From Candidatus Acididesulfobacter guangdongensis (GTDB lineage: Bacteria > SZUA-79 > Acidulodesulfobacterales > Acidulodesulfobacteraceae): a stretch of 64,000 nucleotides of DNA. Positions 6,566 through 40,827 of this stretch are shown here, piece after piece. The translations under genes and the position numbers were made by a program. The notes below the pieces were generated by a model. That model saw only the letters and a program-made list of their open reading frames with translations, did not search any database and had not been told where the DNA came from. The stretch spans positions 124,001 to 188,000 of the forward strand of contig SGBC01000003.1 of NCBI GenBank assembly GCA_004195045.1, given 5' to 3'. Position 1 is the stretch's first letter; each line of letters starts with the position of its first letter.

Positions 6566-8050
6566 ATGAAATTAAAGTTCAAACCAGACGCTAAAATTAT
6601 CGGTGCAGCCGTTGCTGTTTTTATCGGTTTAATAGCAGGGGTTATTATTACGGCAAATTTGCATCTGCTTAAAAAATCCAATGCCGCAGCAAATCCGCCG
6701 TTGATTTATACGACAAAAAATTCTGAGATGCCGGCTCAAAATGGACCTAAGAATTTTATCGCGTTAATTAGACAGGATAAACCTTTTGTAGTTAATATAA
6801 GAACTACTCAACAGATAAAAGGCGGACCTTCTATTATGTATCAGAATCCGTTTGGGAATGAACCGAATCCATTTGGTCAGTTTTTTCATAATTTCTTCAA
6901 CAGTCAGCCTCAATCTTCATATACTGAAGAAAGTCTCGGTTCCGGAGTTATTATAAGTAAAAACGGATATATCATAACAAATAATCATGTTATAAAAGGC
7001 GCTACCAAGATATATGTTAAACTTTACAATGGCAGGACTTATAAAGCGCGTGTTATCGGTAAAGACCCGAATGTTGATTTAGCATTACTGAAGATTCATG
7101 TGAACAAAAGTCTTCCGGCGGCTGTGCTCGGGGATTCTGCTAAGTCTCAAATCGGAGAGTGGGTTCTTGCCATAGGTAATCCTTTTGGTTTAGGCTGGAC
7201 GGTAACAGACGGCATTATAAGCGCTAAAGGACGCGCAATAGGTGGTCCTTATGAAGATTTTATACAGACTAACGCTGCAATAAACCCTGGAAATAGCGGA
7301 GGACCTCTAATTAACATGAAAGGGCAGGTCGTCGGCATAAATACCGCGATAATAAAAGGCGCAACGGGGATAGGTTTTTCAATTCCTATAAACGTTGTCA
7401 AGGAAGTTTTGCCGGAGCTTGAAACGGGAAAAATTACCAGAGGATGGCTTGGTATTGAAATACAGGCAATCAGCCCGTCCCTTGAAAAAGCATTTCATCT
7501 TCATACGACATATGGAGCATTGGTATCATCAGTATTGCCGAATAGTCCAGCGTCAAGAGCAGGATTGAAGAGCGGAGATATTATAATTAAATATAACGGT
7601 TATAAAGTCAAAGAAATGTCGCAATTGCCATGGCTCGTAGGTAATACTAAACCTGGAACTACCGTTCCTATGGAAATTTTAAGAAACGGAAAAAAAATAA
7701 ACCTTAATATCACGGTAGGGAACTGGAAAAGTCCTAAGAATGTATTTAAAGCAAAAAAGGTTACAACCGATAAGTTTGGAATAGCTGTTGTCCCTTTAAC
7801 TGCCTCTAATATGCAAAAATATGGACTTCAAAATGTACATCACGGAGTTATTGTTACAAAAATTATACCGGGAAGTATTGCTCAGAAGATGGGGTTAATG
7901 CCGGGCGATGTTATACAGGAAATAAATCATTCCGTATGCAGCAACATAACTGAATATAAACAGGAAATAAAAAATGCGGAGAAAGAGAACCAGTATTTAT
8001 TATTTGTCAGACGCGGAAGCATGAAGCTGTATCTGGCTTATTCAAAATAA
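6566..8050 (+). CDS. htrA: HtrA/DegP-type periplasmic serine protease
   Basis: HtrA proteases degrade or refold damaged envelope proteins. The 494-residue product begins with a membrane anchor or uncleaved signal (about 10-32), then a trypsin-like domain with triad His141 (TNNHVI), Asp171 (NVDLALLK) and Ser244 (GNSGGP), then two PDZ domains (about 285-380 and 395-490). CGGAGG precedes the ATG. It stands alone, with long gaps on both sides, a possible sigma-54 promoter upstream and a terminator downstream, so it is probably its own stress-controlled unit. DegP and DegQ cannot be told apart from sequence alone. Confidence 0.95.
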   Translation: MKLKFKPDAKIIGAAVAVFIGLIAGVIITANLHLLKKSNAAANPPLIYTTKNSEMPAQNGPKNFIALIRQDKPFVVNIRTTQQIKGGPSIMYQNPFGNEPNPFGQFFHNFFNSQPQSSYTEESLGSGVIISKNGYIITNNHVIKGATKIYVKLYNGRTYKARVIGKDPNVDLALLKIHVNKSLPAAVLGDSAKSQIGEWVLAIGNPFGLGWTVTDGIISAKGRAIGGPYEDFIQTNAAINPGNSGGPLINMKGQVVGINTAIIKGATGIGFSIPINVVKEVLPELETGKITRGWLGIEIQAISPSLEKAFHLHTTYGALVSSVLPNSPASRAGLKSGDIIIKYNGYKVKEMSQLPWLVGNTKPGTTVPMEILRNGKKINLNITVGNWKSPKNVFKAKKVTTDKFGIAVVPLTASNMQKYGLQNVHHGVIVTKIIPGSIAQKMGLMPGDVIQEINHSVCSNITEYKQEIKNAEKENQYLLFVRRGSMKLYLAYSK

Positions 8051-25686: not shown

Positions 25687-25800
25687 ATAATGTTACAACT
25701 ACAACAATTACAACAATGATAATGAAATTATGAAAATTTAAAACGTTTTGAATTGTTTTTGTTTTTTTATGTATTATTTATAAAAAAAATTAATAATTTT

Positions 25801-27585
25801 ATGATTTCTCAGATAGAAAACAGGAGCTGTAATTATAGCAATATTTCTAAAAAGAGGACCGAGAGTTCTAATATTGGAGAAATGCTCGTTTCTAATTCTC
25901 TCATAACAAGGGAAGAATTAGATGATGCTGTAAGCAGACAAAAACTGCCTGTAAAACCGTTTATAAAAATACTTATAGATGAGGGAAAAATAGGTGAAAG
26001 TGAACTTGTAGATTTTTTATCAAAGGCTTTTTGCATAGATTCTGTTAATATAAACGATTTAGAAATTCCTAAAAATATAATAAGCAGCATTTCACCCGAA
26101 ATGGCTGTAAGGTTCCGTGTTATACCATGTAAGAAAGAAAACGGTTTTTTATATGTGGCTACCGCCGACCCTACAATAAACGAAATAATAGATGAAATTT
26201 CTTTTTATGCCGGAATTCCGGCGCAGTATTTAGTGACATCTTATTCACAGATACTAAGCATTATTTCCAGATACTATAATGCTTCATTTATACTCAAAAA
26301 TGGATTTGGCGCTGATGGCGGCAATGGCGAAAATGCATGGCAAACAACTAAAGAATCGGATGAAATAAGCGACATATCTGTAAATAAAAGCAGTGCAGGC
26401 GCAGTAGAAAAATATATAAATAAAGTAATAAGCGATGCTGTTGAAGTTGGCGCTAGCGACATACATTTTGAATTTTATAGAAAATTTTCGAGAATAAGAT
26501 TTCGAACAGACGGCAAATTAACCGAATATTCAAAAATTACCCCCGCCACAGCAAAATTAAACATAATATCGCGCATAAAAAATATGGCAAATCTTGATAT
26601 AACAGAACAGAGATTTCCGCAAGACGGCAGAATTGCGGTTTCTTTAGGGGGACATGAAGTAGATATAAGAGTATCGTGTCTTCCGACTATGTTTGGTGAA
26701 AAAATAGTAATGAGAATATTAAACAAATCTTCACTTATATTTGACATAAATAAAATAGGTTTTTCTCAGGAGCATTTAAAAATTTTGAAGACCGCAATAC
26801 ATAAACCTTATGGTATGATTTTAGTAACCGGTCCGACAGGCGCAGGGAAAACTACGACTCTTTATTGTATTTTAAACGAACTGAATAACTTTGATTCTTT
26901 AAATATTTCTACTGCCGAAGATCCTATAGAATACGATTTTCCCGGTATCAATCAAGTTCAGATAAATGAAAAACTTAGAAACGAAAAAACAAATACCTAT
27001 TTTAATTTTGCCGAAGTTATGAGGTCTTTCTTAAGACAAGACCCCGATGTAATTATGGTAGGAGAAATAAGGGATACCGAAACAGCTTTAATAGCAGTTC
27101 AATCTGCGCTCACCGGACATCTCGTGCTTTCCACAATTCATACAAATAATGCTTCTTCCACGATAACGAGACTTATAAATATGAAAATTGAAAATTTTTT
27201 AGCCGCTTCAAGTCTTAATTTGATAATAGCGCAAAGACTCATAAGAAAACTTTGCATGGAATGTAAGGAAGAATTATCTAATGAAGCAATAAAAAAACTT
27301 GGAATAATCGCTGATTGTAATAATTATTTTAAACTATATAAGGCTAAGGGATGTCCTGTATGCAACAATTCAGGCTATAAAGGGAGAGTTCCAATTTATG
27401 AAATGCTCAATATAACCCATGAAATTAGTGAAATGATAAATAATAACGCAACCGAATCGGAAATAGAAATGATAGCTGTTAAAAACGGCATGAAGACCTT
27501 GTCGGATTCTGCAAAAGAAAAATTTTTCAGCGGTATTACATCTTTGGAAGAAATATTTCCTTATTTAAATAAGAAAATAGATTAG
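25801..27585 (+). CDS. PilB/GspE-type assembly ATPase
   Basis: These ATPases power pilin or pseudopilin assembly at the inner membrane. I prefer ATG 25801 (594 residues): upstream codons give an unlikely hydrophobic extension starting from TTG. The protein has an MshEN/GspE N-terminal domain (about 25-165), a central domain, Walker A GPTGAGKT at 344-351, Asp-box and Walker B region (RQDPDVIMVGEIRDTETA), a His box (STIHTNNA) and a C-terminal zinc site (CMEC ... CPVC). It sits among signalling genes; the pilus genes at 38-41 kb and 56-61 kb are likely partners. A PilB or a GspE role cannot be separated. Confidence 0.9.
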   Translation: MISQIENRSCNYSNISKKRTESSNIGEMLVSNSLITREELDDAVSRQKLPVKPFIKILIDEGKIGESELVDFLSKAFCIDSVNINDLEIPKNIISSISPEMAVRFRVIPCKKENGFLYVATADPTINEIIDEISFYAGIPAQYLVTSYSQILSIISRYYNASFILKNGFGADGGNGENAWQTTKESDEISDISVNKSSAGAVEKYINKVISDAVEVGASDIHFEFYRKFSRIRFRTDGKLTEYSKITPATAKLNIISRIKNMANLDITEQRFPQDGRIAVSLGGHEVDIRVSCLPTMFGEKIVMRILNKSSLIFDINKIGFSQEHLKILKTAIHKPYGMILVTGPTGAGKTTTLYCILNELNNFDSLNISTAEDPIEYDFPGINQVQINEKLRNEKTNTYFNFAEVMRSFLRQDPDVIMVGEIRDTETALIAVQSALTGHLVLSTIHTNNASSTITRLINMKIENFLAASSLNLIIAQRLIRKLCMECKEELSNEAIKKLGIIADCNNYFKLYKAKGCPVCNNSGYKGRVPIYEMLNITHEISEMINNNATESEIEMIAVKNGMKTLSDSAKEKFFSGITSLEEIFPYLNKKID

Positions 27586-27778: not shown

Positions 27779-29242
27779 ATGTCTAAAATGCTTGACGTAA
27801 AAATTGTTCCTCATAGAAATTATTTAATGGCAGATACGCCTGACCAGAAACTGTTTATTGAATTAAAACTCAGTTCAAATAAATTAAATATAGATGCTGC
27901 CTCATTTCCAGGCGGTGACGCCGCCAATCATGCACTTAGCGCTTCTTCTTTATCTATTGTATTTGTTGTAGATACGTCCGGGTCAATGCGCGAAATTGTC
28001 TCAGGCTCAACGCAGTTTACCGGACAAACCCAAACTATTGACGGCAATACTTATAATCTGGTTACGGGAGGAGAATCTAAGATAGGAATTATTATAGATG
28101 GATTAAAAAAATTTGTCGGTTCGTCGAAATTGAAAAAAACCGATAGAATCAGCATTGTCAAGTTTGACGATGATGCAAAAGTTCTTCTGCCCTTCACAGA
28201 CGTTGACGATAAAAATAAAAATATGATAACGGAAGCTATTGAAAATTTATTGAAATATAGCGGCGGCACCAGTATGGGAGCAGGATTGAAGACTGCCTTA
28301 GGGTTAATGTCTAAAGAAACGTCAAGCAGAAGAATTATTATGCTTACCGACGGTCAAACTTCCGATGAAGATTTAGTCAGAGAAACTGCGTCTGAATTAG
28401 CAAGAGAAAATACGCCTGTAATAGCTATAGGCATAGGCGAAGACTGGAATGAAGATTTGATTACCGATATAACGGACAAAACGCAGGGAAAACCTTTTTA
28501 TGCCACGACTGAAACTACTGTAATACCGGTACCGGTAGCAGACGCTAACGGCAATATTGCCATTAAGCCTTCCGACATACCTGAAGTTATGATAAAAGAA
28601 TTAGACCGCGCGGTAAGCGAATCGCTCACTGGAGTTTCTTTGACTATAAACGCTGTGCAAGATGTTAAAATAGACAGAATAACAAGGGTCTATCCTGAGG
28701 TATCTGAAGCAGATATAAATATAAAACCGCATTCTCTGGGTAATATCAGCAAAACAGACAGTACGGTATTTATAATAGAAGCCACGATACCGGAGCGGCA
28801 GCCGTTAAAATCCCGTCTTATGCAGTTGGGTTTAACTTATAATGTGCCAGGAATAAATTTTAGAGATGAAAATCCGCCTGAAGATATTATAGTCGAATTC
28901 ACTATGGATGAATCCAAAGCCTCGGTTATAGACCAGGAAGTAATGCAGTGGGTGCAGCAAAGAAATGTCGGCGGATTGGTTGAAAAAGCAATAAAAGAAG
29001 CCGCAAGCAATCCTTCTAATGCAGCAAAAACTCTTGATATGGCAAGGCGTATGACAGTAAAATTAGGGAACGGCGCAATGACAAGGATGATAGAACAGGC
29101 TCAGAATGAAATAAAAGAAAATAAAACCATAAGTCTCGGAACATCAAAAACTTTAAGAATAGGTTCAAGAACAAAGACCGTAAAATTAGATGCCGGACAA
29201 GGACTTTCCGATGAACAGATCAGAAAACTCGCCGGAATTTGA
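27779..29242 (+). CDS. VWA (MIDAS) domain protein
   Basis: The 487-residue cytoplasmic protein carries a von Willebrand factor A domain (about 55-250) with an intact metal-dependent adhesion site: DTSGS at 65-69, GGTSMGAG near 160 and LTDGQTSDED near 185. A C-terminal region of beta strands and a helical tail follows. No signal peptide or membrane segment is seen. VWA proteins next to FHA, PP2C and kinase genes are common in bacterial phospho-signalling loci, where they serve as scaffolds. GGAGAA precedes the ATG. Confidence 0.88.
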   Translation: MSKMLDVKIVPHRNYLMADTPDQKLFIELKLSSNKLNIDAASFPGGDAANHALSASSLSIVFVVDTSGSMREIVSGSTQFTGQTQTIDGNTYNLVTGGESKIGIIIDGLKKFVGSSKLKKTDRISIVKFDDDAKVLLPFTDVDDKNKNMITEAIENLLKYSGGTSMGAGLKTALGLMSKETSSRRIIMLTDGQTSDEDLVRETASELARENTPVIAIGIGEDWNEDLITDITDKTQGKPFYATTETTVIPVPVADANGNIAIKPSDIPEVMIKELDRAVSESLTGVSLTINAVQDVKIDRITRVYPEVSEADINIKPHSLGNISKTDSTVFIIEATIPERQPLKSRLMQLGLTYNVPGINFRDENPPEDIIVEFTMDESKASVIDQEVMQWVQQRNVGGLVEKAIKEAASNPSNAAKTLDMARRMTVKLGNGAMTRMIEQAQNEIKENKTISLGTSKTLRIGSRTKTVKLDAGQGLSDEQIRKLAGI

Positions 29243-29290: not shown

Positions 29291-29998
29291 ATGAAAACAT
29301 GTCCTTCATGCGGCAAAAAGTTTACCGATGATAAAAAGTTCTGTAATTTGGACGGAACAGAGTTAATTGTGCTTGAAATTCCTGAAGAGGCTGCAATACC
29401 CGAACAGACGGCGTCAGAAGAACATCTTGAAGACCCTTACGCTAATGACGCTGTCAACATTACCGGCGATAAGATAAGTGATGGTGTTATTAATAATAGC
29501 GGGACTGGTAATAAAATTAATAAGAATAATAATACAGATAATGATAATATAGACAATCAAGGTGCGGTAAATAAAGACCGTGACGGCGATATTTTTTCTG
29601 ACATACTTTCGAAAGACACATTTTTTGCAGATAAAAATGCTGCGACGACTAATGAATTTAAGTACGCCAGAATTACGCTAAAACATGATAATAATTTAAC
29701 TGAGCAATTTTTTGATTTAAATTCTGAAAGTATGATTATAGGAAGATTTGACCAATCAACGGGGAATGTGGATATAGATTTGAGCAAATTACCCGACGCA
29801 GAACATATTTCAAGAAAACACGCAAGGTTTACTTTTGAAAACGGAAAATGGTTTATAGAGGATCTAAAGTCAACGAACGGAGTTTTTGTAAAGGTCGGCA
29901 ATGCTTCAGAATTTTCCTCAAGGATTACCGAACCGACTGAATTAAGAAACAGGGATCAGATTTCTATAGGGGATATAATTTTTTTGTTCACTGTATAA
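29291..29998 (+). CDS. Zinc-ribbon FHA domain protein
   Basis: The 235-residue protein starts with a one-ended zinc ribbon (CPSCGKKFTDDKKFC, residues 4-18), has an Asn/Asp-rich linker (about 60-100), and ends with an FHA domain (about 125-235) with the phosphothreonine-binding marks IIGRF, HISRKHARF and STNG. FHA domains read phosphothreonine made by Ser/Thr kinases, so it is the natural reader for the kinase at 32213. It lies 48 bp after the VWA gene with AAAGGAG before the ATG. Confidence 0.92.
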   Translation: MKTCPSCGKKFTDDKKFCNLDGTELIVLEIPEEAAIPEQTASEEHLEDPYANDAVNITGDKISDGVINNSGTGNKINKNNNTDNDNIDNQGAVNKDRDGDIFSDILSKDTFFADKNAATTNEFKYARITLKHDNNLTEQFFDLNSESMIIGRFDQSTGNVDIDLSKLPDAEHISRKHARFTFENGKWFIEDLKSTNGVFVKVGNASEFSSRITEPTELRNRDQISIGDIIFLFTV

Positions 29999-30230: not shown

Positions 30231-32084
30231 ATGAGCCCTGAAGTTCTGGAAGAAAAGATATATCCAATTGAAGACGACTCTGCGCGGTTTAAGTATGGGG
30301 ATACATTTTTCGTAAATAATTCAGAATTAAAATTAGGCGCTTATCTTTTTTCAGGCTGGCGTTTTGTTTATAACAGCTCCGGAGAAGGATTATTATATTA
30401 TGAGGGCAATCGTGAATTGCTTGAAAATTTTCCGAAATCTTCAATGCTGCCTGAAGTTTTGTATTACTCTGAAAACGAAGTTGTTATTGCAGATATCGGC
30501 AAATTGAGGTATAAACAATATAAATTTGTTAAACCCTCCAAAAAAGAAGACATTAATAAAATAGTGGGTTATTTGTCTGATATAGCCAAACTCATTAAAA
30601 ATTTTAAAGAAAACAATCTATCGGTTTTATATATAAATCCTGACTCTATTAATATTGACGCAACTAATACTGATACAACTGACACTGACGCAACTGATTT
30701 AATGTATAATCGCAGCAGCAAGATAAAATTAAAGATTTTTCCAGATGTATGCGAAATAAACAAAGAAATGTATTCATCTAAGGATATGGTTGCTCCTGAA
30801 GTTTTAAGACGCAGAAAAGCAACAGGAAAGGAAGGAGTGTATGTTTTAGGGCTTTTATGCGTCAAATTTCTATTAGGAAAAAATTTGCATCCTTATGACG
30901 ATATAAGTGTTCTGAATTGCATTTCTGATGTTGACATACCTGGGTTTCCACAATTTTTGTCAAAAACATTGGCTTATAGCAACGAAAGATTTACTATTGA
31001 AGAAGCCATTGATTATTTAAAAAATATTGCGGAGGAAATGAAAATGCCTGTAAAATTTGATATCGGTATGTCTTCAACTGTAGGATTAAATATTGACAGG
31101 CTTATAGATGAAGACAGCTGCGGATTTGTTATTGAAAATACTTTAAATTCAGGCGGCAAAGTTTTATCCATAAGGGCTTGCCTTGCTGACGGAATGGGCG
31201 GAATGGCGGCGGGAGAAGTTGCAAGCAAAGCTGCGGTAAACGCTTTTTTAAAGACCGGAACAGACTTATCCGCCGGCTTTGATACTGCTGCTGACGACAT
31301 TAATAGTTTAGCTTTAAATATGGCATGGCAGGCAAATAAAAATGTTTTTGATTTTCTTGAAGGCAAAGACGGCGGATGTACTTTTATCGGTGTCGTTATT
31401 AAAAATGAAAATTTTGCGTTAGTTCACGCAGGCGATTCAAGAGCATATTTATGGACAGGTTCTAAACCTAATCCTGAATTAATAAGACTCACTAATGACC
31501 ACTCATACGTTGCTTTAATGGTATCGAGCGGCAATATGACGGAAGAAGAAGCGAAAAACAGTCCCGACAGAAATAAAATTGTAAAATCTTTAGGCGCCGT
31601 CAGAAATAGACAGGAAGGATATATTGACGATTTGCAAAAAACAATAGGTAAAAAAACAGAAGTCCTGAAAAATAATGATATACTTATATTGGTATGCGAC
31701 GGAATATGGTCTGAGATAGGAGAAGATGGGATAATATCTATATTAAACCGTTGCAAAACAACCGTAAACAACAATTTAAACAATAAGTTAAGTAATAATT
31801 CAAACAACAATTTAAACGATAAGTTAAGTAATAATTCAAATAATAATTTAAGCAATAAGCTAAATATCAATTCAAGCAATAAGTTAAATAATAATTTTGA
31901 AAATTTAGAAAATAATTTAGAGTATAAAAAAATAAATAATATAAATAGCAACGATTATATAGATACCAACGACGATATAGATATAATAGACGCCCAATAT
32001 ATAGCTGATTTACTTGTGGGTTCGGCAGTGAAAAATGGTGCTTCCGATAATGCGTCTGCGCTTATTATTAAAAGAACAGCGTGA
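30231..32084 (+). CDS. Pseudokinase-PP2C phosphatase fusion
   Basis: The C-terminal part (about 285-617) is a PP2C Ser/Thr phosphatase with all metal-binding acids: Asp320 (ADGMGG), Asp402 (HAGDSRAY), Asp490 (VCDG) and Asp606 (GASDN). The N-terminal 280 residues look like a decayed protein-kinase fold: VLYINPDSINI stands in place of HRDLKPDN, IKIFPD in place of the DFG strand, then MVAPEVLRR and GVYVLGLLCVKFLLGKNLHPYDD as in kinase C-lobes. The catalytic Asp and VAIK Lys are not recognisable, so this part is probably a binding or regulatory pseudokinase. A 36-bp tandem repeat adds an Asn-rich loop inside the PP2C domain. It should oppose the kinase encoded next. Confidence 0.8.
   Translation: MSPEVLEEKIYPIEDDSARFKYGDTFFVNNSELKLGAYLFSGWRFVYNSSGEGLLYYEGNRELLENFPKSSMLPEVLYYSENEVVIADIGKLRYKQYKFVKPSKKEDINKIVGYLSDIAKLIKNFKENNLSVLYINPDSINIDATNTDTTDTDATDLMYNRSSKIKLKIFPDVCEINKEMYSSKDMVAPEVLRRRKATGKEGVYVLGLLCVKFLLGKNLHPYDDISVLNCISDVDIPGFPQFLSKTLAYSNERFTIEEAIDYLKNIAEEMKMPVKFDIGMSSTVGLNIDRLIDEDSCGFVIENTLNSGGKVLSIRACLADGMGGMAAGEVASKAAVNAFLKTGTDLSAGFDTAADDINSLALNMAWQANKNVFDFLEGKDGGCTFIGVVIKNENFALVHAGDSRAYLWTGSKPNPELIRLTNDHSYVALMVSSGNMTEEEAKNSPDRNKIVKSLGAVRNRQEGYIDDLQKTIGKKTEVLKNNDILILVCDGIWSEIGEDGIISILNRCKTTVNNNLNNKLSNNSNNNLNDKLSNNSNNNLSNKLNINSSNKLNNNFENLENNLEYKKINNINSNDYIDTNDDIDIIDAQYIADLLVGSAVKNGASDNASALIIKRTA
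31770..31895. repeat. 36-bp in-frame tandem repeat within the PP2C gene
   Basis: Units start at 31770, 31806 and 31842, with a partial fourth. They encode a 12-residue Asn/Leu/Ser-rich unit (NNLNNKLSNNSN). Being a multiple of three, copy changes would alter loop length without a frameshift. Confidence 0.85.
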
Positions 32085-32212: not shown

Positions 32213-34156
32213 ATGATTAATTGTCCTTATTGTCAATCGTCTATCCCTGATAATTCCGCTAAATGCCCTGTCTGCGGAGGAGAAATAGAGCAGGATAATT
32301 CTCCGTCTTGCACTCCTCTTGAAACCGGCAGCATCATTTATTCAAAATATAAAGTAGAAAAGGTTATCGGACAGGGCGGCTTTGGAATAACGTATCTTGC
32401 CTATGACGAAAAACTCGGCAGAAAAGTCGCTATAAAAGAATATTTTCCGGATGGAATAGCATCAAGAACAGGCAATAAAGTGACTATGCCGCCCACGCTG
32501 GAAAATAAGAAAAATATGGAAGGCTTTACAGAGGAAGCCAGGGCAATAGCAAAATTAAAGAATTCCGGAATAGTCGATGTTTACGACATAATAGAAGAAA
32601 ACGGCACAGTCTATATAGTAATGGAGTACATCAGCGGCGTCCCTATGTCTTCACTTCTTGGAAAAATAAGTGAAAAAGACGGATTAAAATATATAAGGCA
32701 GGTTGCTGATGCCGTAAAAGCTATTCATGACAAAGGACTGCTGCATCAAGATATAAAACCGGACAATATCATAATTAAGGATTCCGGAGATATTAAAATT
32801 ATAGACTTTGGTTCTTCAAGTGATTTTGCAGACGGTAAAACTAAAACTTACGAAAAAATTTTGACGCCCGGATATGCGCCTCTTGAACAGTACGGAGGAA
32901 AAGGCAGACGAGGAAAGTTTACGGATGTATATGCTATATGTGCAACTTTGTATGCTTGTATAAAGGGTGTGCCTCCGCCTGAAGCCACTGCATTAGCCGG
33001 CGGAGTGCCGATAGATTTTGCCGGAATCAGTGAAGAATTAAAAAGTATAATAGAAAAAGGTCTTTCTGTAAAAATTCCGGACAGAATACAAGATACTGAT
33101 GAATTAGTTAAATTATTAGATGATTGCGAAGCAAAACGGCAGATAGATAAACAGCCGCTTAACGTTGGCGGAAGACCTGACGGAAGAGTACCCGAAAATA
33201 TCTCTGTGTCTAAACATACGCCTGAAACTCCGCCTGAAAAAATAAACGAAATTCAGGTAAAATCTCCAACTCATCCGGCAGAGCCGAATAATTTACACGG
33301 TCAGCCGCCCCTGCCGCATGACAACTTAAATAATGTAAATGGCGGTAATGGTAAAGCGAGTAATGACGACAATAGATTTAATGGCGCTAACGATAAAGCG
33401 AATAACGATATAACGAATAGCGGCGGTAATATTTACTCTCGGCAAAGTTTTAATAAATCCAATAAAAAAATTGCATTAACAGCGGTAATTGCCGGAATTA
33501 TAATTTTTATCGCATCTTCAGCAGCGGCAGGTTATTTTTATATTTATCTGCCGATGAAAAACAAAAAAACAACAAATACAACAAATAGCAGTAATAATAA
33601 CCGTAAGTCTCAAGGAAAATCAGCCGGCAGATTAAAAGCAGAAAAACTTGAAAAGAGGAATAAAAATAAGAATAAAAGGAATACCGATCAACTTAAACAT
33701 ACTAAATATGAAAATAACGCGAACAATGCAAATATTATAAATAATGCGAATAATACCGGCAATACAAGCAACACGCAATCCGCATCATCCGTTCCGATTT
33801 TGCCGAAGACAAATTATGTCTCTAATTCTAACGTAAATAATAATAGTTCAAATTCAAATAACGTAAGAGTAGCGGCGTATCCTCCGCCGATTCTGCGCAT
33901 TGCGCCGCCGCAAACATCTAATGTATTTACCGGGCAAGGATATGAAGATTTTAAAATTGCAGGCTGTTTTTACTGTCACAGAATATACAACAAGGGAAAT
34001 AAGAACGGCTCAAATCTTTCTAATGTCGGTTCGTTGCTGAGCTACGTCCAGATAAAAAATCAGATTTTACATCCGACTTCCTCAATGCCGCCAAGTCCGG
34101 ATATGCCGCCGGAAGAGCTTTCTCAGATAGCAAATTGGCTTGAAGGTCTAAAATAG
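32213..34156 (+). CDS. Ser/Thr kinase with zinc ribbon and outer c-type haem domain
   Basis: The 647-residue protein has, in order: a zinc ribbon (CPYCQSS ... CPVCGG, 3-24), a kinase domain (about 45-305) with GQGGFG at 53, Lys75 (VAIK), Asp180 in HQDIKPDN, DFG at 198 and GYAPLEQY, a Pro/Asn-rich linker, one membrane segment (about 420-445), an Asn-rich spacer, and a C-terminal domain (about 572-647) with CFYCH at 585-589 and SSMPPSPDM near 623-631. CXXCH is the covalent haem c site and Met in an MPP context is a common distal ligand. The topology puts the haem outside, where c-type maturation takes place. I infer a redox- or gas-sensing kinase. The catalytic loop has Gln for Arg before Asp180, so it is a non-RD kinase. 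Confidence 0.85.
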   Translation: MINCPYCQSSIPDNSAKCPVCGGEIEQDNSPSCTPLETGSIIYSKYKVEKVIGQGGFGITYLAYDEKLGRKVAIKEYFPDGIASRTGNKVTMPPTLENKKNMEGFTEEARAIAKLKNSGIVDVYDIIEENGTVYIVMEYISGVPMSSLLGKISEKDGLKYIRQVADAVKAIHDKGLLHQDIKPDNIIIKDSGDIKIIDFGSSSDFADGKTKTYEKILTPGYAPLEQYGGKGRRGKFTDVYAICATLYACIKGVPPPEATALAGGVPIDFAGISEELKSIIEKGLSVKIPDRIQDTDELVKLLDDCEAKRQIDKQPLNVGGRPDGRVPENISVSKHTPETPPEKINEIQVKSPTHPAEPNNLHGQPPLPHDNLNNVNGGNGKASNDDNRFNGANDKANNDITNSGGNIYSRQSFNKSNKKIALTAVIAGIIIFIASSAAAGYFYIYLPMKNKKTTNTTNSSNNNRKSQGKSAGRLKAEKLEKRNKNKNKRNTDQLKHTKYENNANNANIINNANNTGNTSNTQSASSVPILPKTNYVSNSNVNNNSSNSNNVRVAAYPPPILRIAPPQTSNVFTGQGYEDFKIAGCFYCHRIYNKGNKNGSNLSNVGSLLSYVQIKNQILHPTSSMPPSPDMPPEELSQIANWLEGLK

Positions 34157-34655: not shown

Positions 34656-35042
34656 ATGAATTATCTTTTGGATACGCATGTATTTCTATGGTTTGCTTCC
34701 GACGATATAAAGCTGTCGCCCGTCGCTAAAGAAATCATCGAGAACGGTAAAAACAATATATATCTAAGTTCTGCTTCAGTATGGGAATTAAGTATAAAAA
34801 TAATTATAGGCAAATTAAAATTAAAAAAAGACCTGAATAAATTTATTGCTGAAAATATAGCCAGATACGCATATATTCCGCTTCCAGTAACTATCCCGCA
34901 TGCCCTTGAAATTTCAAAACTTCCCGAAATTCATAAAGACCCTTTTGACAGAATGTTAGTAGCTCAGGCATTAGCTGAAAAAATGAAGATAATTACGTCA
35001 GACAGCTATATAAGGAAATATAACGTAAAAACGGCTTGGTAA
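34656..35042 (+). CDS. vapC: PIN-domain toxin (VapC-like)
   Basis: The 128-residue protein matches PIN-domain RNase toxins of the Phd-linked group: YLLDTHVFLWFASDD at the start (first catalytic Asp at residue 6), SSASVWELSIKI (conserved Glu), HKDPFDRMLVAQALAEKM (conserved Asp pair) and ITSDSYIRKY near the end. All acidic residues of the active site are present, so it should be an active RNase held by the antitoxin encoded 2 bp upstream. Such toxins usually cut specific tRNAs or rRNA; the target here cannot be inferred. Confidence 0.9.
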   Translation: MNYLLDTHVFLWFASDDIKLSPVAKEIIENGKNNIYLSSASVWELSIKIIIGKLKLKKDLNKFIAENIARYAYIPLPVTIPHALEISKLPEIHKDPFDRMLVAQALAEKMKIITSDSYIRKYNVKTAW

Positions 35043-35446
35043 AATAAAGAAAATTCTGTAAAATATTGCCGCATTTTTTTCGTAAAACTTCTTTTGTGTA
35101 TTTCGGTTTCAACTGTTACAGGTTAATCCTCTCTTTATTTTTATTAAATTATTTTATGTTTATAAAAAACAATTGAAAAGATATAAGAAAAATGTGTGGA
35201 AAAAACAGAAAAAGGCTTCATTAATAATATCTTTATTTTGATTATGTTTGATGTTTATTATATTCGTTATTTTTTATATGTTTATGTTGTATATACTTAA
35301 GGTTTTTTATAATAATATTAATTGGATTAAATTAATTATAATTAAATTAATTGTAATTATAAAAATAATTGCATTTTTTTTTATGTACTAATTCTATTAC
35401 TTGCCATAACAGATTGTCGAGTAGTTTTTATTGTATTAACCCCTAA

Positions 35447-35475
35447 TTGACTGGAATAAAATTAGACACTATAAT
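35447..35475 (+). promoter_or_regulatory. Strong sigma-70-like promoter before the IS element
   Basis: TTGACT (35447-35452), a 17-base spacer and a perfect TATAAT (35470-35475) are followed by AGGAGGG (35486-35492) and ATG at 35498. The open frame started there runs only 19 codons, into the IS left end (stop at 35555). The rest of the 472-bp gap from 35043 is AT-rich and unremarkable. Confidence 0.6.
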
Positions 35476-35637
35476 TAAGTCAATAGGAGGGTAAAAAATG
35501 GGATTAAATTTAACTAACATTGCCGAGAAGTCCCCGTCCGTGAGAGCGGAGATGTAAGGCAATACAAAATATTATTTGTTGTTCGTTATTATTTTTTTTG
35601 TTTGATATTATATTTCAGTTATGCTATACTTATACAT

Positions 35638-36048
35638 ATGAGATATAACACAAACAAAGGCAATCATTCGGTATATTGTCTTCAGTTCCATTATGTAGCC
35701 TGTGTAAAATACAGGAGAAAAATACTGACTGGAAAAATATCGGAAAGACTGAAAGAAATAAATAAAAGCGTAGCCGAGCATTTCGGCATAGATATAATTG
35801 AACAGGAAACAGACAAAGACCATTTACATATATTATTTTCAAGCAAGCCGCAAATAGAAATTAGCAAATTCGTAAACAGCTTAAAGTCTGTTTCGGCAAG
35901 ATTGTTATTTCGTGAATTTTCCGAAATAAAGAAACAATTATGGAACGGTCATTTATGGAGTCCTTCTTATTTTCTTGCTACAACGGGACAAGTAACGCTT
36001 GATATACTAAAAAAATACGTAGAGTCGCAAAATGCTAAAGACTTATAA
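35638..36048 (+). CDS. tnpA: IS200/IS605 Y1 transposase TnpA
   Basis: Starting at ATG 35638 gives 136 residues beginning MRYNTNKGNHSVYCLQFHYVACVKYRRK. The family marks are present: the HUH-type pair in DHLHILFSSKP and the catalytic Tyr in the C-terminal helix (LDILKKYVESQ). TnpA cuts and rejoins the top strand at the hairpin ends. An earlier start at 35602 would add a hydrophobic stretch not found in the family. The gene overlaps tnpB by 17 bp and looks intact. Confidence 0.92.
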   Translation: MRYNTNKGNHSVYCLQFHYVACVKYRRKILTGKISERLKEINKSVAEHFGIDIIEQETDKDHLHILFSSKPQIEISKFVNSLKSVSARLLFREFSEIKKQLWNGHLWSPSYFLATTGQVTLDILKKYVESQNAKDL

Positions 36049-37279
36049 ATATAGGTTATATCCTACCAAGAAACAAACTGAAAAATTAGACTGGACGCTT
36101 GAGACTTGCCGTATTCTTTATAATTCCTGCCTTGTCGATAGAAACCGCCATTACGAAGAAACAGGTAAAGGATTATCAAGAATAGACCAGCAAAAGATAC
36201 TTGTAAAAGATAAGAAAAATATCGAATACTTAAAAAATATCCACTCCCAAGTATTGCAGGATGTCCTTTTCAGAGTTGAAAAAGCTTATCAAAACTTCTT
36301 TCGCCGCCTCAGAGCCAAAAACGGCACCACCGCAGGAGGCAGCGGAGCTCACGCAGGTTATCCCCGCTTTAAAAATCAAGGCAGATACGTCTCTATAACA
36401 TATACTCAGTCCGGCTTTGCTATCATAGATAATAAACTCAAATTATCCAAAATCGGACATATCAGACTTAAACTGCATCGCAATATTGACGGCACAATTA
36501 AGACCTGTAATATCAAAAAAGAGATAGACCGCTGGTATATCTGCTTATCGGTTGAGTATGATATTAAAGTCGTTAAGAATACCATTATAACTAAACATGT
36601 CGGCATAGATGCCGGCATTAAATCTTTTGCAGTTCTATCAAACGGTAAGACGATAGACAATCCTAAACATTTGCGTAAATCCGAAGAAAAGCTTATCAAA
36701 ATACAAAAACGATTATCAAATAAGAAAAAAGGTTCAAATAACCGCAAGAAAGCAAAAGTTATATTAGCTAAAATTCATAAGAAAATATCTAATCAGCGCA
36801 ATGATTTTCAGCATAAAGAATCAAGAAAAATAATTAATACTTACAACGCAATAGGCGTAGAAGATTTGCAAATTAAGAATATGGTCAAAAATCATAAACT
36901 ATCTAAATCAATATCTGACGCAGGCTGGGGACAGTTCCTTTCATACATAAAATATAAAGCGGAAGAAGCTGGTAAGTTATTTATGAAAGTAAATCCCCGC
37001 AATACATCTAAAGAATGTCATATATGCGGATATATCTATAAGGATATGACATTATCAGTAAGAAACTGGACTTGTCCTATTTGCAATACCGAACATGACA
37101 GAGATGTAAACGCCGCCTGTAATGTAGATAAAATAATGTTAGAAAAAATACGGCAGGAACTGCCGGAATATACGCTTGCGGAAACGGGCTCTATGGATGA
37201 CATCGTAGATAGCAATATCTACGCACTAAAAAGTATCCCGTCGTTGAAGCAAGAAGCTTCGTCCGTAAGGGCGAGGTAG
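36032..37279 (+). CDS. tnpB: TnpB RNA-guided nuclease
   Basis: The 415-residue protein is a full-length TnpB, the ancestor type of Cas12. It has the N-terminal MLKTYKYRLYPTKKQTEKLDWTLETCRILYNSCL region, a split RuvC site (VGIDAGIKSF near 192, IGVEDLQIKNM near 274, and HDRDVNAACNV near 363) and a zinc finger (CHICGY ... CPICNTEHDRD). All catalytic acids are present. It should be guided by an RNA from its own 3' end and help the element survive after excision. The two last Asp residues of the active site are intact, so this is not a decayed copy. Confidence 0.93.
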   Translation: MLKTYKYRLYPTKKQTEKLDWTLETCRILYNSCLVDRNRHYEETGKGLSRIDQQKILVKDKKNIEYLKNIHSQVLQDVLFRVEKAYQNFFRRLRAKNGTTAGGSGAHAGYPRFKNQGRYVSITYTQSGFAIIDNKLKLSKIGHIRLKLHRNIDGTIKTCNIKKEIDRWYICLSVEYDIKVVKNTIITKHVGIDAGIKSFAVLSNGKTIDNPKHLRKSEEKLIKIQKRLSNKKKGSNNRKKAKVILAKIHKKISNQRNDFQHKESRKIINTYNAIGVEDLQIKNMVKNHKLSKSISDAGWGQFLSYIKYKAEEAGKLFMKVNPRNTSKECHICGYIYKDMTLSVRNWTCPICNTEHDRDVNAACNVDKIMLEKIRQELPEYTLAETGSMDDIVDSNIYALKSIPSLKQEASSVRAR

Positions 37280-37600: not shown

Positions 37601-38125
37601 ATGAAAAAAAAATTATTGATTTTTATGTTTATTATTTTAGCCGTATCTGCCGCCGCAGCATCTTTTATCGGTTTTAACAGCATCAATGCTTATGCCGCAG
37701 TAGGAAATACTTATAAACAGATGCAAAAAAAATATCGTATGAAAAGAATTCCGCTGAACACATTGTATTTTTATCAGAATGAGCTTGAGCAATATAATTA
37801 TAAAAATTCGGGAATTAAAGCGTATGAATATACTTTCAATAAAGTAAAATATGAAGCGGTATTTAACACAGGCGGCGTGTGCTGGCTGGAATTTGCGGTT
37901 TCTAATAATTCTACGGTTATACCGTTAAGCCAGCTGATTCAAAAAAATTTGTACGGATATCCGATACTATTCAGAACGCTCAGATATGTTCCAAATGAAT
38001 ATGAAAAACTTCAATATGGCAGAGATGTTGGCAAGGTTATCTATATTATGCAGTATATTTATCAGGATAACGATATTTTACAGGAAGCAGTTATGCCTTC
38101 AATGTCTCCCAACGGCAACTACTAG
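37601..38125 (+). CDS. Exported protein, unknown function
   Basis: This 174-residue product has a signal peptide (KKKLLIFMFIILAVSAAAASF, then NAYAA near residue 32), so it is probably exported. The mature part is Tyr/Asn-rich, with no family that I recognise. It is 6 bp upstream of a prepilin-like gene, so it is likely part of the minor pilin unit, perhaps as a periplasmic accessory. That role is only inferred from position. Confidence 0.6.
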   Translation: MKKKLLIFMFIILAVSAAAASFIGFNSINAYAAVGNTYKQMQKKYRMKRIPLNTLYFYQNELEQYNYKNSGIKAYEYTFNKVKYEAVFNTGGVCWLEFAVSNNSTVIPLSQLIQKNLYGYPILFRTLRYVPNEYEKLQYGRDVGKVIYIMQYIYQDNDILQEAVMPSMSPNGNY

Positions 38126-38131
38126 TAGTAT

Positions 38132-38803
38132 ATGAATTTAAATATTCTTAAAAATGGAAAAGGCTTTAGTTTGCTGGAAATAGTAATTACTATTATAATA
38201 CTCGGCATATCTTTAACTGCTATACTGGAGAGTTTTATAGCAGGTTCTGCAGCAAGCGTACGGATTGCGAATGAAATTACCGCAACAAATTTGGCTAAAC
38301 AATATATGGCTGATTTAAATTACTGCAGTGAGGGCGGCAGCGTCATAAATACAGCAGGCAACACAAACGGCGTATGCAGCAATTTTAATGCGGCGTCATC
38401 GAAGGGTGGTAGCAGTGGCAGTATATGGAGTAAAGGTGCAACAATAGACAGCTATATTTTCCAGTCTCCTCAGGTCCAGCAAATTAACAATGAATGTTTT
38501 TATACCGCTTTTTATCCGAGCGGCACAAATGAATATCCGACGCAGTATATAACTTTAAATGACCCGACGGGCTTTAATTCAGGCGATGTTACTATAAATC
38601 CATCCCCTATTTCTTCACCTGTACAGCCTCAAGCCGATACCAGTTATATTTTATTAGCCGTCGTAAAAACAGAATGGTTTAATAATAACGTTGACGGCGG
38701 AAATTGCACATCTTCTTTTAATCCGTCCGCAGACGCTAATTATCCCAGCGTTACGCTTACAATGATTTTCACAAATTATTATAATACCAATACCGGCGGT
38801 TAA
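38132..38803 (+). CDS. Minor prepilin (PilV/GspI-like)
   Basis: The 223-residue protein has a type IV prepilin leader: a short basic stretch, then KGFSLLEIVITIIILGISLTAILE, with cleavage expected between Gly11 and Phe12 and the conserved Glu at position +5. The C-terminal part is a Gly/Ser/Asn-rich globular head with four Cys that may form disulfides. Minor pilins of this type prime pilus assembly. The neighbours are also pilin-like genes. Exact subtype is uncertain. Confidence 0.82.
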   Translation: MNLNILKNGKGFSLLEIVITIIILGISLTAILESFIAGSAASVRIANEITATNLAKQYMADLNYCSEGGSVINTAGNTNGVCSNFNAASSKGGSSGSIWSKGATIDSYIFQSPQVQQINNECFYTAFYPSGTNEYPTQYITLNDPTGFNSGDVTINPSPISSPVQPQADTSYILLAVVKTEWFNNNVDGGNCTSSFNPSADANYPSVTLTMIFTNYYNTNTGG

Positions 38804-38842
38804 TGTACTTAGACAGTTAAATTAATGGAGGAAAATACCAAA

Positions 38843-39133
38843 ATGTTAAGAAAAAGAAAAAAAATATTATTGGTAGCCGGTCTAATTTCTCTCATATCTA
38901 CCGGTCTTGTAGGTTGTGGTCAGCAGCCGTCTCCGTCATCACCTCCGCCGGCTGCTGGTGGTAATTCTGCAAACAATGTATGTGCCCAGAAGACAACTAA
39001 TAACATCGCAATATCAACATCATGCTCTGCGCAGTTTACGATAACCGCTGTTAATCCGAGCGATAAGAATAGCGGCGAGCAGAGAAGCGTGACGAGCGGA
39101 TTTTCTACTATTATAGATAATCCTCAAAATTAG
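38843..39133 (+). CDS. Small predicted lipoprotein in the pilin cluster
   Basis: I choose ATG 38843 over ATG 38825 because GGAGG (38827-38831) lies 11 bases upstream and the signal peptide begins at once: LRKRKKILLVAGLISLISTGLVGC. The lipobox LVGC puts the lipidated Cys near residue 26. The 96-residue product is then a Pro/Ser-rich linker and a short domain with two more Cys. No known family is recognised. Placement between two prepilin-like genes suggests a role in pilus assembly or anchoring. Confidence 0.6.
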   Translation: MLRKRKKILLVAGLISLISTGLVGCGQQPSPSSPPPAAGGNSANNVCAQKTTNNIAISTSCSAQFTITAVNPSDKNSGEQRSVTSGFSTIIDNPQN

Positions 39134-39189
39134 CAATAAATTTATATTATTTACAAAAAATATGGAAAAACTATAATTATAATATTACC

Positions 39190-39236
39190 TACCATTGCCG
39201 ATATAATTACTCGTCCGTAAGGGCATGGTAGCAGTC
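39190..39236. repeat. IS605-end-derived hairpin (left-end/right-end chimera)
   Basis: CTACCATTGCCGA resembles the left end of the element at 35515, and CGTCCGTAAGGGCATGGTAG resembles its right end. The outer arms TACCAT and ATGGTA pair. It looks like an internally deleted, non-coding derivative in the gap between the lipoprotein and the next pilin gene. The left flank has TTAC, a target known for some family members. Confidence 0.5.
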
Positions 39237-39292
39237 TATGCGAATAGATTATAAAGAACCTCTAAAGAAGTAAGAAGAAGGAATTTTAAAAT

Positions 39293-40012
39293 ATGAATCT
39301 GACGAAAAGAATTTTAGAGCAATCCGAACATAAAAAAGATAAAAAAACATTGAAAATATCTGAAGATTTTCACAAGAACTACAAAGAGCAGACAAAAAAA
39401 GATAATATATTTAGAAACGGCATGTACATTAATAATAGCGGATTTACGCTCATAGAATTAGTTATGACAATCCTGCTGACAGGCATAATGGCTGTCGGAT
39501 TATATCAGGTAATAATGTTTGGAATAAACAATTATGTATCTAATGAAAATTCACTTTATATGAGTAATTCTCTTAGCAATGCAAGTTCCGTAATAAGAAA
39601 AAACGCTGAAGAAGCGGCGATGCCACCCACTACCAATCAGCCGCCGGTACCGTCTGCGGGTGCAATATGTCCCTTAGCTTCCAATAGCCTCAATGATATA
39701 AGTTCTAATGTAAATGGTTTTAGCGGTCCCATTATTCTTGCATGCGCCGACGGTTCTGTACCCGCGCCGTCAGCAAATTCTTCGCAGCAGACGTGTACAG
39801 CTTGTTTGCCCGGTGAATCAAGTCCATGTGAGCCAAGCGAAATTGCGTTTTATAAATATACGCCGCCGACTGTTATTGCGGGCGGAAGTAATGAAGAATT
39901 AATAGTTTTTTGTATAAATAATGATGTATTATATAAACAGGTGACCACAAGCAATGGAACTACTACTGACTACCCAGTTGCGAATAATATCGGCAGTATT
40001 AATTTTCAATAA
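39293..40012 (+). CDS. Minor prepilin (PilW-like) with long leader
   Basis: The 239-residue protein has the prepilin motif SGFTLIELVMTILLTGIMAVGLYQ. Starting at ATG 39293, which has a GAAGGA site upstream, the leader before the cleavage Gly is about 50 residues, much longer than usual. A start at 39422 would give a normal short leader but lacks a clear ribosome binding site. The head domain has several Cys and Pro-rich loops. It forms a set with the prepilin-like genes at 38132 and 40144. Confidence 0.8.
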   Translation: MNLTKRILEQSEHKKDKKTLKISEDFHKNYKEQTKKDNIFRNGMYINNSGFTLIELVMTILLTGIMAVGLYQVIMFGINNYVSNENSLYMSNSLSNASSVIRKNAEEAAMPPTTNQPPVPSAGAICPLASNSLNDISSNVNGFSGPIILACADGSVPAPSANSSQQTCTACLPGESSPCEPSEIAFYKYTPPTVIAGGSNEELIVFCINNDVLYKQVTTSNGTTTDYPVANNIGSINFQ

Positions 40013-40038
40013 CCATATTGATAATAATCTATCAAAAA

Positions 40039-40144
40039 ACTTTATTTAAATTAATATAAATTTGCAGAAAAAATCCTAAAAATATTATTAAAGACTTTAT
40101 TTAAAATTAATATAAATTTACAGAAAAAAATCTAAAGGATATTA
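40039..40144. repeat. About 50-bp direct repeat before the PilX-like gene, offset 55-57 bp
   Basis: ACTTTATTTAAATTAATATA at 40039 and its near copy at 40094 continue for about 50 bp with small indels. The second copy carries an AAAGGA site and runs into the start codon at 40144, which the first copy lacks. Confidence 0.7.
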
Positions 40145-40827
40145 TGGTAAAATTTATCAAAAACAGGGTTATAAAGTCAAATAGCGGAATATCTATAATA
40201 TTTGCCATTATTATAATTATTTTAATGGGGCTGGCTGGTTCCGTCTTTGCGTATCTTATGGCTTCAAGCAGCATAAATTCAAGACAGAGCTTAACAAGTG
40301 CCGCCGCGAAATATGCTGCTAAATCAGGTATAGAAATTGCAGCGTATGAGCTCAACAACAGTAATAATCGTAATAATGGTAACAATGGTAATAATGGTAA
40401 TAACGGTAATAACGGTAATAACGGTAACAATACTACTGCATTCAATCCTGCCGGTTTTTCAGGTACGTCACCGACCGGTCTAAACTGTCCGAATAATGTT
40501 GTTTTGCCTTACGGTGTTTCCGATGGAAATTTAACCCAGCCTCCATATTATATTTATAGTTATAATCTTTATTCTGGCGGTTCGAATATCGGCGTTGATA
40601 ATTATACACCTGCGTTTTGCGCTGTGGTGCAACAATATCAACCAAATACAACACAACCGCCAATAAGCAGTCAATGTAAATCTACTTGGATTATTACATC
40701 CAACGGATTTGCAGGCGGCACGGTCAGGTCTGTCAGCGCGGAAGTCGGTACTGAGTGCCCTACCACTACCACTACTATTATTTTCGTAGAAAATGAAGTG
40801 GCTAATAACAATGCTAATAATAATTAA
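40144..40827 (+). CDS. PilX-like minor pilin with Asn-Gly repeat
   Basis: The 227-residue protein has an N-terminal SNSGISIIFAIIIIILMGLAGSVFAYLMA segment like PilX/GspK-type pilins. The usual Glu at +5 is absent, as in some PilX-like proteins. A 9-bp tandem repeat (GGTAAYAAY, 40354-40431) encodes an Asn-Asn-Gly run after the first helix. Four Cys are in the head domain. It follows the PilW-like gene and ends the minor pilin set. Confidence 0.7.
   Translation: MVKFIKNRVIKSNSGISIIFAIIIIILMGLAGSVFAYLMASSSINSRQSLTSAAAKYAAKSGIEIAAYELNNSNNRNNGNNGNNGNNGNNGNNGNNTTAFNPAGFSGTSPTGLNCPNNVVLPYGVSDGNLTQPPYYIYSYNLYSGGSNIGVDNYTPAFCAVVQQYQPNTTQPPISSQCKSTWIITSNGFAGGTVRSVSAEVGTECPTTTTTIIFVENEVANNNANNN
40354..40431. 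repeat. 9-bp GGTAAYAAY tandem array inside the PilX-like gene
   Basis: About seven in-frame units encode Asn-Asn-Gly. Third codon positions vary between C and T, so it is not a recent perfect expansion throughout. Confidence 0.9.

Follow-up and report, generated by a model that had tools for sequence, protein, structure and literature searches.

To our knowledge, what most bacterial receptor Ser/Thr kinases sense outside the cell is not known, apart from cell-wall fragments. The locus described here raises the question of whether one such kinase might take its input from a cytochrome c domain outside the cytoplasm. It lies in a 64,000-nucleotide stretch of the Candidatus Acididesulfobacter guangdongensis genome (the window; features of the window are given by their position in it and are all on the plus strand), in which a single frame at 32213..34156 begins as a Ser/Thr kinase and ends in a short tail carrying a CXXCH motif. 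The original prediction, made from sequence alone, was a kinase with an outer c-type haem sensor domain responding to redox state, NO, CO or sulfide. We asked whether the tail is a cytochrome domain, whether the fusion is real and what such a protein could do, with a family set of 30 genomes for comparison, the relatives being bacterial metagenome-assembled genomes.

The kinase domain

The frame is complete, comprising 647 codons with no internal stop, and by fold and motifs (sequence, profile matches and orthologue alignment) it encodes a complete Hanks-type Ser/Thr kinase with a C-terminal cytochrome c tail; that the kinase is active is inferred. The protein opens with a zinc-ribbon-like region at residues 4-22 (32222..32278), the four Cys of which (C4, C7, C18 and C21) are invariant in the orthologue alignment, and which Pfam Zn_Ribbon_1 matches at E 0.0026, under its cut-off. 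The protein kinase domain follows at residues 46-306 (32348..33130; PF00069, 3.3e-37), with K75, D180 and D198 invariant across 10 orthologues and a catalytic loop that reads HQD, not HRD. The predicted unbroken frame with zinc ribbon, Lys75, Asp180 and Asp198 therefore held in sequence and in Pfam, the zinc ribbon with the reservation just given. The best NCBIfam match for the kinase was PknB_PASTA_kin at 150 bits, and no Pfam match to PASTA repeats was found in the protein. The genome of the window has one clear Hanks-type kinase, a second Pkinase match (1.8e-5) being under the cut-off, and amongst the family genomes further kinases without a cytochrome tail were seen only in G011 and G013.

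Conservation of the fusion

Kinase and tail occupy one frame in nine genomes of two genera, namely that of the window, G001, G005, G011, G013, G018 (two copies), G019, G024 and G029. In G010, of a third genus, the contig stops after residue 150 of the kinase. Since the fusion recurs in nine genomes of two genera with a conserved frame, an assembly artefact can be ruled out.

The two ends of the protein are held far more tightly than what lies between them. Mean pairwise identity is 79% in the kinase and 76% in the tail, compared with 41% in the membrane segment and 30% in each linker, and over eight pairs dN/dS was 0.01-0.10 for the tail, 0.05-0.17 for the kinase and 0.2-0.9 for the linkers. 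This means that the kinase and the tail have both been kept, the linker being translated but free to vary, and that the tail is under constraint as strong as that on the kinase.

There are two exceptions to the intact fusion. In G004 (L034:6001-8151 (+)), an in-frame TGA at 7300-7302 falls between the kinase and the part that holds the membrane helix and tail, with the halves on either side both still open and conserved. In G003 (L040:4736-6249 (+)), a truncated von Willebrand factor A (vWA) gene is followed at once by the tail, and the FHA, PP2C and kinase genes are missing; a deletion or a misassembly could each account for this arrangement. The TGA split of L034 was also seen as L013, in the same single metagenome-assembled genome.

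The cytochrome tail

The tail is a monohaem cytochrome c domain of about residues 571-647 (33923..34153) and is more than a chance CXXCH, as shown by sequence profiles; haem binding is inferred. Taken singly, the tail of the window gives only suggestive scores. PF13442 matched it at 2.0e-5 (25.3 bits, cut-off 27), PF00034 at 1.2e-3 (20.5 bits, cut-off 21.3) and the NCBIfam cytochrome c551 model at 1.4e-6, each of these staying under its curated cut-off; the c550 model matched at 4e-6. The case is carried instead by the orthologous tails, all 11 of which match both PF13442 and PF00034 (E<=0.01, best E 1.2e-6), and by profile-profile alignment to the cytochromes of the same genome, in which hhalign aligned the tail with five free cytochromes across 79 columns at a probability of 99.3%. 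When tails and free cytochromes were combined in one profile, this found PDB structures of c551, c552 and cbb3 at approximately 1e-3 to 4e-6; the matches of a tail-only profile to the PDB were weak, the best being 0.017. AlphaFold, given only five close sequences of the tail, returned three helices at a pLDDT of 43. Since this is not a usable model, the fold assignment rests on the sequence profiles, which fill part of the gap left by the structure prediction. No relatives of the tail or of the free cytochromes could be confirmed in viral contigs, and tblastn found no tail in plasmid records.

The residues expected to hold a haem are all present. The attachment motif, CFYCH at residues 585-589 (C585-F-Y-C588-H589; 33965..33979), is invariant in 11 tails. 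Met625 (34085..34087), the likely sixth haem ligand, is invariant in 16/16 aligned rows and in an alignment of tails and free cytochromes falls on the MP motif of the latter. A second conserved Met, Met631 (34103..34105), is invariant in the tails of the kinases and of the Hsp70-operon proteins described below, and nearly so in the free cytochromes. The two Met lie in the context SMPPSPDMPP. The predicted single membrane pass, CXXCH at 585-589 and pair of Met in an MPP-type context were therefore all upheld, and the motif and both Met proved invariant in every orthologue that carries a tail.

A tail of this kind could in principle be a decayed, haem-free cytochrome whose sole remaining role is binding or anchoring outside the cell. 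In favour of this, the Met loop is shorter than in the free cytochromes, and the tail of the window scores under the Pfam cut-offs. We consider it very unlikely, however, since C585, C588, H589 and Met625 are all invariant, which would not be expected of a domain without haem.

The likely ligands also bear on what a haem at this position might do. Ordinary His/Met cytochromes mainly transfer electrons. If the haem were instead a gas or ligand sensor, NO, CO or sulfide would displace Met625 and the change would be relayed to the kinase, and there is precedent in the Cache-type haem c sensor domains, which respond to NO in fusions with signalling modules (PMC12889525). Against this, the sequence profiles place the tail with the ordinary monohaem cytochromes c, its His and Met ligands being conserved, and not with Cache or PAS; no Pfam match to a Cache domain with a haem motif (DUF3365/Tll0287) was obtained, the cytochrome c families matching instead. 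Since ligation by His589 and Met625 would be as in electron-carrying cytochromes, electron exchange is favoured over gas binding, which we regard as unlikely. The original prediction of redox, NO, CO or sulfide sensing is modified to this extent, with both the sensor role and the haem remaining inferred.

Haem attachment and orientation

The genome of the window encodes ResB-like and CcsA-like proteins, which constitute System II cytochrome c maturation. The ResB assignment was made from its position and its resemblance to the Pfam-confirmed pair at L115. In the second genus, ResB and CcsA genes lie only a few kilobases from the kinase operon (L115:378-2664, L118 and L120). The presence of this machinery is consistent with the original claim that haem c would be attached outside the cytoplasm. 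The genome of the window also has many free monohaem cytochromes. Other enzymes with similar cytochrome domains occur in the family genomes (for example at L008), and these resemble ordinary redox proteins.

Hydropathy showed one hydrophobic segment at about residues 416-447, in which the single transmembrane segment was placed at about residues 419-445 (33467..33547); it was seen in 10/10 orthologues. It is followed by an Asn/Lys-rich, fast-evolving linker at residues 446-570 (33548..33922; mean pairwise identity 30%, dN/dS 0.2-0.45), which is presumed to be outside. Lys and Arg are abundant in this linker and of similar density on either side of the helix, and so the positive-inside rule leaves the orientation undecided. 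With a single pass, a cytoplasmic kinase would mean an outer tail. Since the kinase needs ATP, which is inside, and the CXXCH needs haem lyase, which is outside, we infer that the cytochrome tail lies outside the cytoplasm, without direct evidence for this orientation.

The kinase operon

In both genera the kinase gene sits in a conserved order of vWA, FHA, PP2C, kinase/cytochrome and then a 174-aa protein, the FHA gene having been missed by similarity in two loci (L117 and L119). In the window, the operon starts with the vWA protein (27779..29242; PF00092, 4e-21), followed by an FHA-domain protein, a phospho-threonine reader (29291..29998; PF00498, 4e-15), and a PP2C phosphatase (30231..32084; PP2C 9.6e-9, Stp1-type 3.5e-33), with the synteny supporting the first two. 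PP2C homologues were found in 11/30 family genomes, namely those with the kinase, together with G010, in which it is truncated by the contig end. The presence of FHA and PP2C proteins in the operon makes phospho-threonine signalling likely. The N-terminal part of the PP2C protein (30231-31130) has a weak Pkinase match (E 0.014, residues 178-226) and is possibly a degenerate kinase domain.

The 174-aa protein (37601..38125, by synteny) matches no Pfam family and is predicted to be secreted on the basis of a signal-like N-terminal segment. It was found in 17/30 family genomes, mostly beside the kinase operon, and it is possible that it acts as a partner of the cytochrome tail. Its gene comes next after that of the kinase in the ancestral order. 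In the window only, transposon-like genes part it from the kinase; the corresponding gap in L032 is only ~330 bases. The intervening genes at 34656-37279, identified by reading only, are a PIN-domain-like gene and IS200/IS605-like TnpA and TnpB genes.

A PilB/GspE-type ATPase gene (25753..27585; T2SSE 2e-131, MshEN 3e-14; synteny) adjoins the operon in the window and also in the second genus, where it is divergently oriented. Downstream are three pseudopilin-like genes (38132, 39293 and 40144, together 38132..40827; synteny), the first two with N_methyl motifs, and the three are kept within the genus of the window. In G017, the entire block from PilB through the kinase is absent between an ammonium transporter gene and the 174-aa gene. 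Control of a type IV pilus or pseudopilus is possible as an output, on the basis of neighbourhood only.

An anti-phage kinase was also considered and set aside, since the PADLOC matches cover mainly the kinase region and the operon partners match nothing.

A second protein with the same tail

Two family genomes without the kinase, G022 and G006, carry the tail at the end of a 400- to 418-residue non-kinase membrane protein (L166:9431-10633 (+) and L170:3737-4993 (-)), which the tail profile matches at E 1e-38 to 1e-39. This protein has a single membrane segment, and its N-terminal half matches no Pfam family. Its gene directly follows the GrpE and Hsp70 genes and is followed by a TPR gene, the identities of the neighbours in G006 resting on their similarity to those in G022, where the 174-aa protein is also found beside the Hsp70 operon. 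The haem motif in both of these tails is CLYCH, and the equivalents of C585, C588, H589 and Met625 are invariant in all tails, these two included. In a midpoint-rooted tree of few rows, with only four free cytochromes of the window's genome included, the kinase tails and Hsp70-operon tails formed one group apart from the four at 100/100 support. The tail is thus not peculiar to kinases, and its presence on two unrelated membrane proteins makes it look like an interchangeable outer (input) module.

The same observation can be read differently. The tail may be an electron-transfer or docking domain and not a sensor, tethering the protein to a periplasmic cytochrome or oxidoreductase complex, with the kinase responding elsewhere, through the 174-aa protein, the zinc ribbon or the vWA protein. 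The relatedness of the tail to the free electron carriers of the genome, its reuse on the Hsp70-operon protein and the conservation of the 174-aa protein as a neighbour all fit this explanation. On the other hand, the outer part has no other conserved signal receiver, the linker being only 30% identical, and the strong joint constraint on tail and kinase suggests that the two work together. We therefore consider docking alone to be unlikely.

Discussion

We propose that the protein is a transmembrane receptor kinase with an outer redox-sensing cytochrome c domain, a reading we hold with a rough probability of 0.6. What has been shown by computation is the domain composition and its conservation, the purifying selection, the operon, the co-occurrence of its genes, the haem-attachment machinery and the reuse of the tail; haem binding, orientation, redox sensing, transmission, the targets and kinase activity are inferred. 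In this model, the tail would be exported and haem attached to C585 and C588 by ResB/CcsA, with H589 and Met625 as the axial ligands. The haem would then trade electrons with periplasmic partners, which may be the cell's own monohaem cytochromes, or iron or sulfur compounds, and since it exchanges electrons with such partners its oxidation state would report on the outer respiratory chain. The state of the haem would be relayed across the flexible linker and the one membrane helix and alter the activity of the cytoplasmic kinase; dimerisation, or an interaction with the putatively secreted 174-aa protein, is the probable means. The kinase would phosphorylate Thr on targets that are read by the FHA protein and reset by the PP2C phosphatase, with the vWA protein as a scaffold or target. 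A candidate output would be pilus assembly or pseudopilus secretion, with the targets perhaps being type IV pilus parts.

The weakest step is transmission through a long and variable linker, since a rigid relay of a redox-dependent change in shape is hard to picture. The TGA split in G004, the tail without a kinase in G003 and the 174-aa protein alone in G017, again without a kinase, also count against the redox-kinase reading.

A bolder reading treats the tail as an outer redox-sensing cassette that can be swapped between proteins, an entire cytochrome c that arose from electron carriers of the same cell and became attached to two cytoplasmic machines unrelated to one another, the kinase/PP2C/FHA set and the Hsp70/GrpE set. 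We lean slightly against it on present evidence. If it were true, the state of the outer respiratory chain would control phosphorylation in some species and chaperone activity in others, and the tail in the chaperone operon would add to the known ways of sensing respiration. If the redox-kinase reading itself is true, it would tie electron flow in the periplasm directly to Hanks-type phosphorylation, and these bacteria may sense external redox conditions and relay them into the cell through protein phosphorylation. Since the input domain would have its own cofactor, the signal could be both set and read by spectroscopy and potentiometry.

Comparison with known systems

The original prediction held that this combination was not known as described, and no description of a kinase-cytochrome c fusion was found in the literature searched, most subscription journals being outside its scope. 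Within one kinase-rich phylum, 21 stretches from 58 genomes had long frames bearing PF13442 or tail-profile matches, with no kinase motif in the CXXCH frame, and over 117 genomes of the kinase-rich phylum the tail profile made one match, not a kinase. Kinases outside the family that share the catalytic-loop peptide of the query had no CXXCH downstream of the kinase. These searches were samples, and fusions elsewhere are not excluded. The parts are all known, in receptor Ser/Thr kinases with outer domains, vWA/PP2C/kinase triads, type VI control by kinase, PP2C and FHA, and haem c sensors. A Hanks kinase with an entire cytochrome c for its outer domain appears to be undescribed, absence from samples being weak evidence.

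Two known systems have gene combinations like that of the operon. The TerY-P triad (PMC11090510) also combines vWA, PP2C and STK in one operon with a zinc ribbon on the kinase, but there the zinc ribbon is C-terminal, whereas here it is N-terminal on a membrane-spanning protein with a cytochrome c C-terminus, and FHA is added. No Ter or restriction genes were seen among the neighbouring genes read. The threonine phosphorylation pathway of type VI secretion (PpkA, PppA and Fha) likewise has a membrane kinase, PP2C and FHA in one locus and the same phospho-threonine logic, but here the kinase has a cytochrome c outer domain and the vWA is a separate protein. A type VI secretion partner was set aside, as VipA/TssB (PF05591), the sole type VI gene looked for, is absent from the genome of the window.

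For the tail itself, the nearest relatives are the small monohaem cytochromes c (c551/c552 and the cbb3 subunit type), with which it shares its matches to PF13442/PF00034 and to the c551/c552 structures, and from which it differs in being fused to a kinase or Hsp70-operon protein, in its compact Met loop and in forming a separate clade. As a signalling input it resembles the haem c sensors of the Geobacter chemoreceptors (GSU0582 and GSU0935) and to sCache_heme (PMC12889525, in the text of which the word 'threonine' does not occur), where covalent haem c bound at CXXCH also serves an extracytoplasmic domain, haem being inferred in the present case. Those sensors have PAS/Cache folds on MCPs, histidine kinases, cyclases and GGDEF/EAL proteins, whereas here a whole cytochrome c domain is found on a Ser/Thr kinase. 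As a whole, the protein resembles the PASTA-type kinases (PknB/Stk1/PrkC) with Stp, since both have an N-terminal Hanks kinase, one membrane pass and an outer C-terminal input domain, together with a PP2C partner and an FHA protein nearby. It scores only 150 against the PknB_PASTA_kin equivalog cut-off of 450, and in place of PASTA repeats its outer domain is a cytochrome c.
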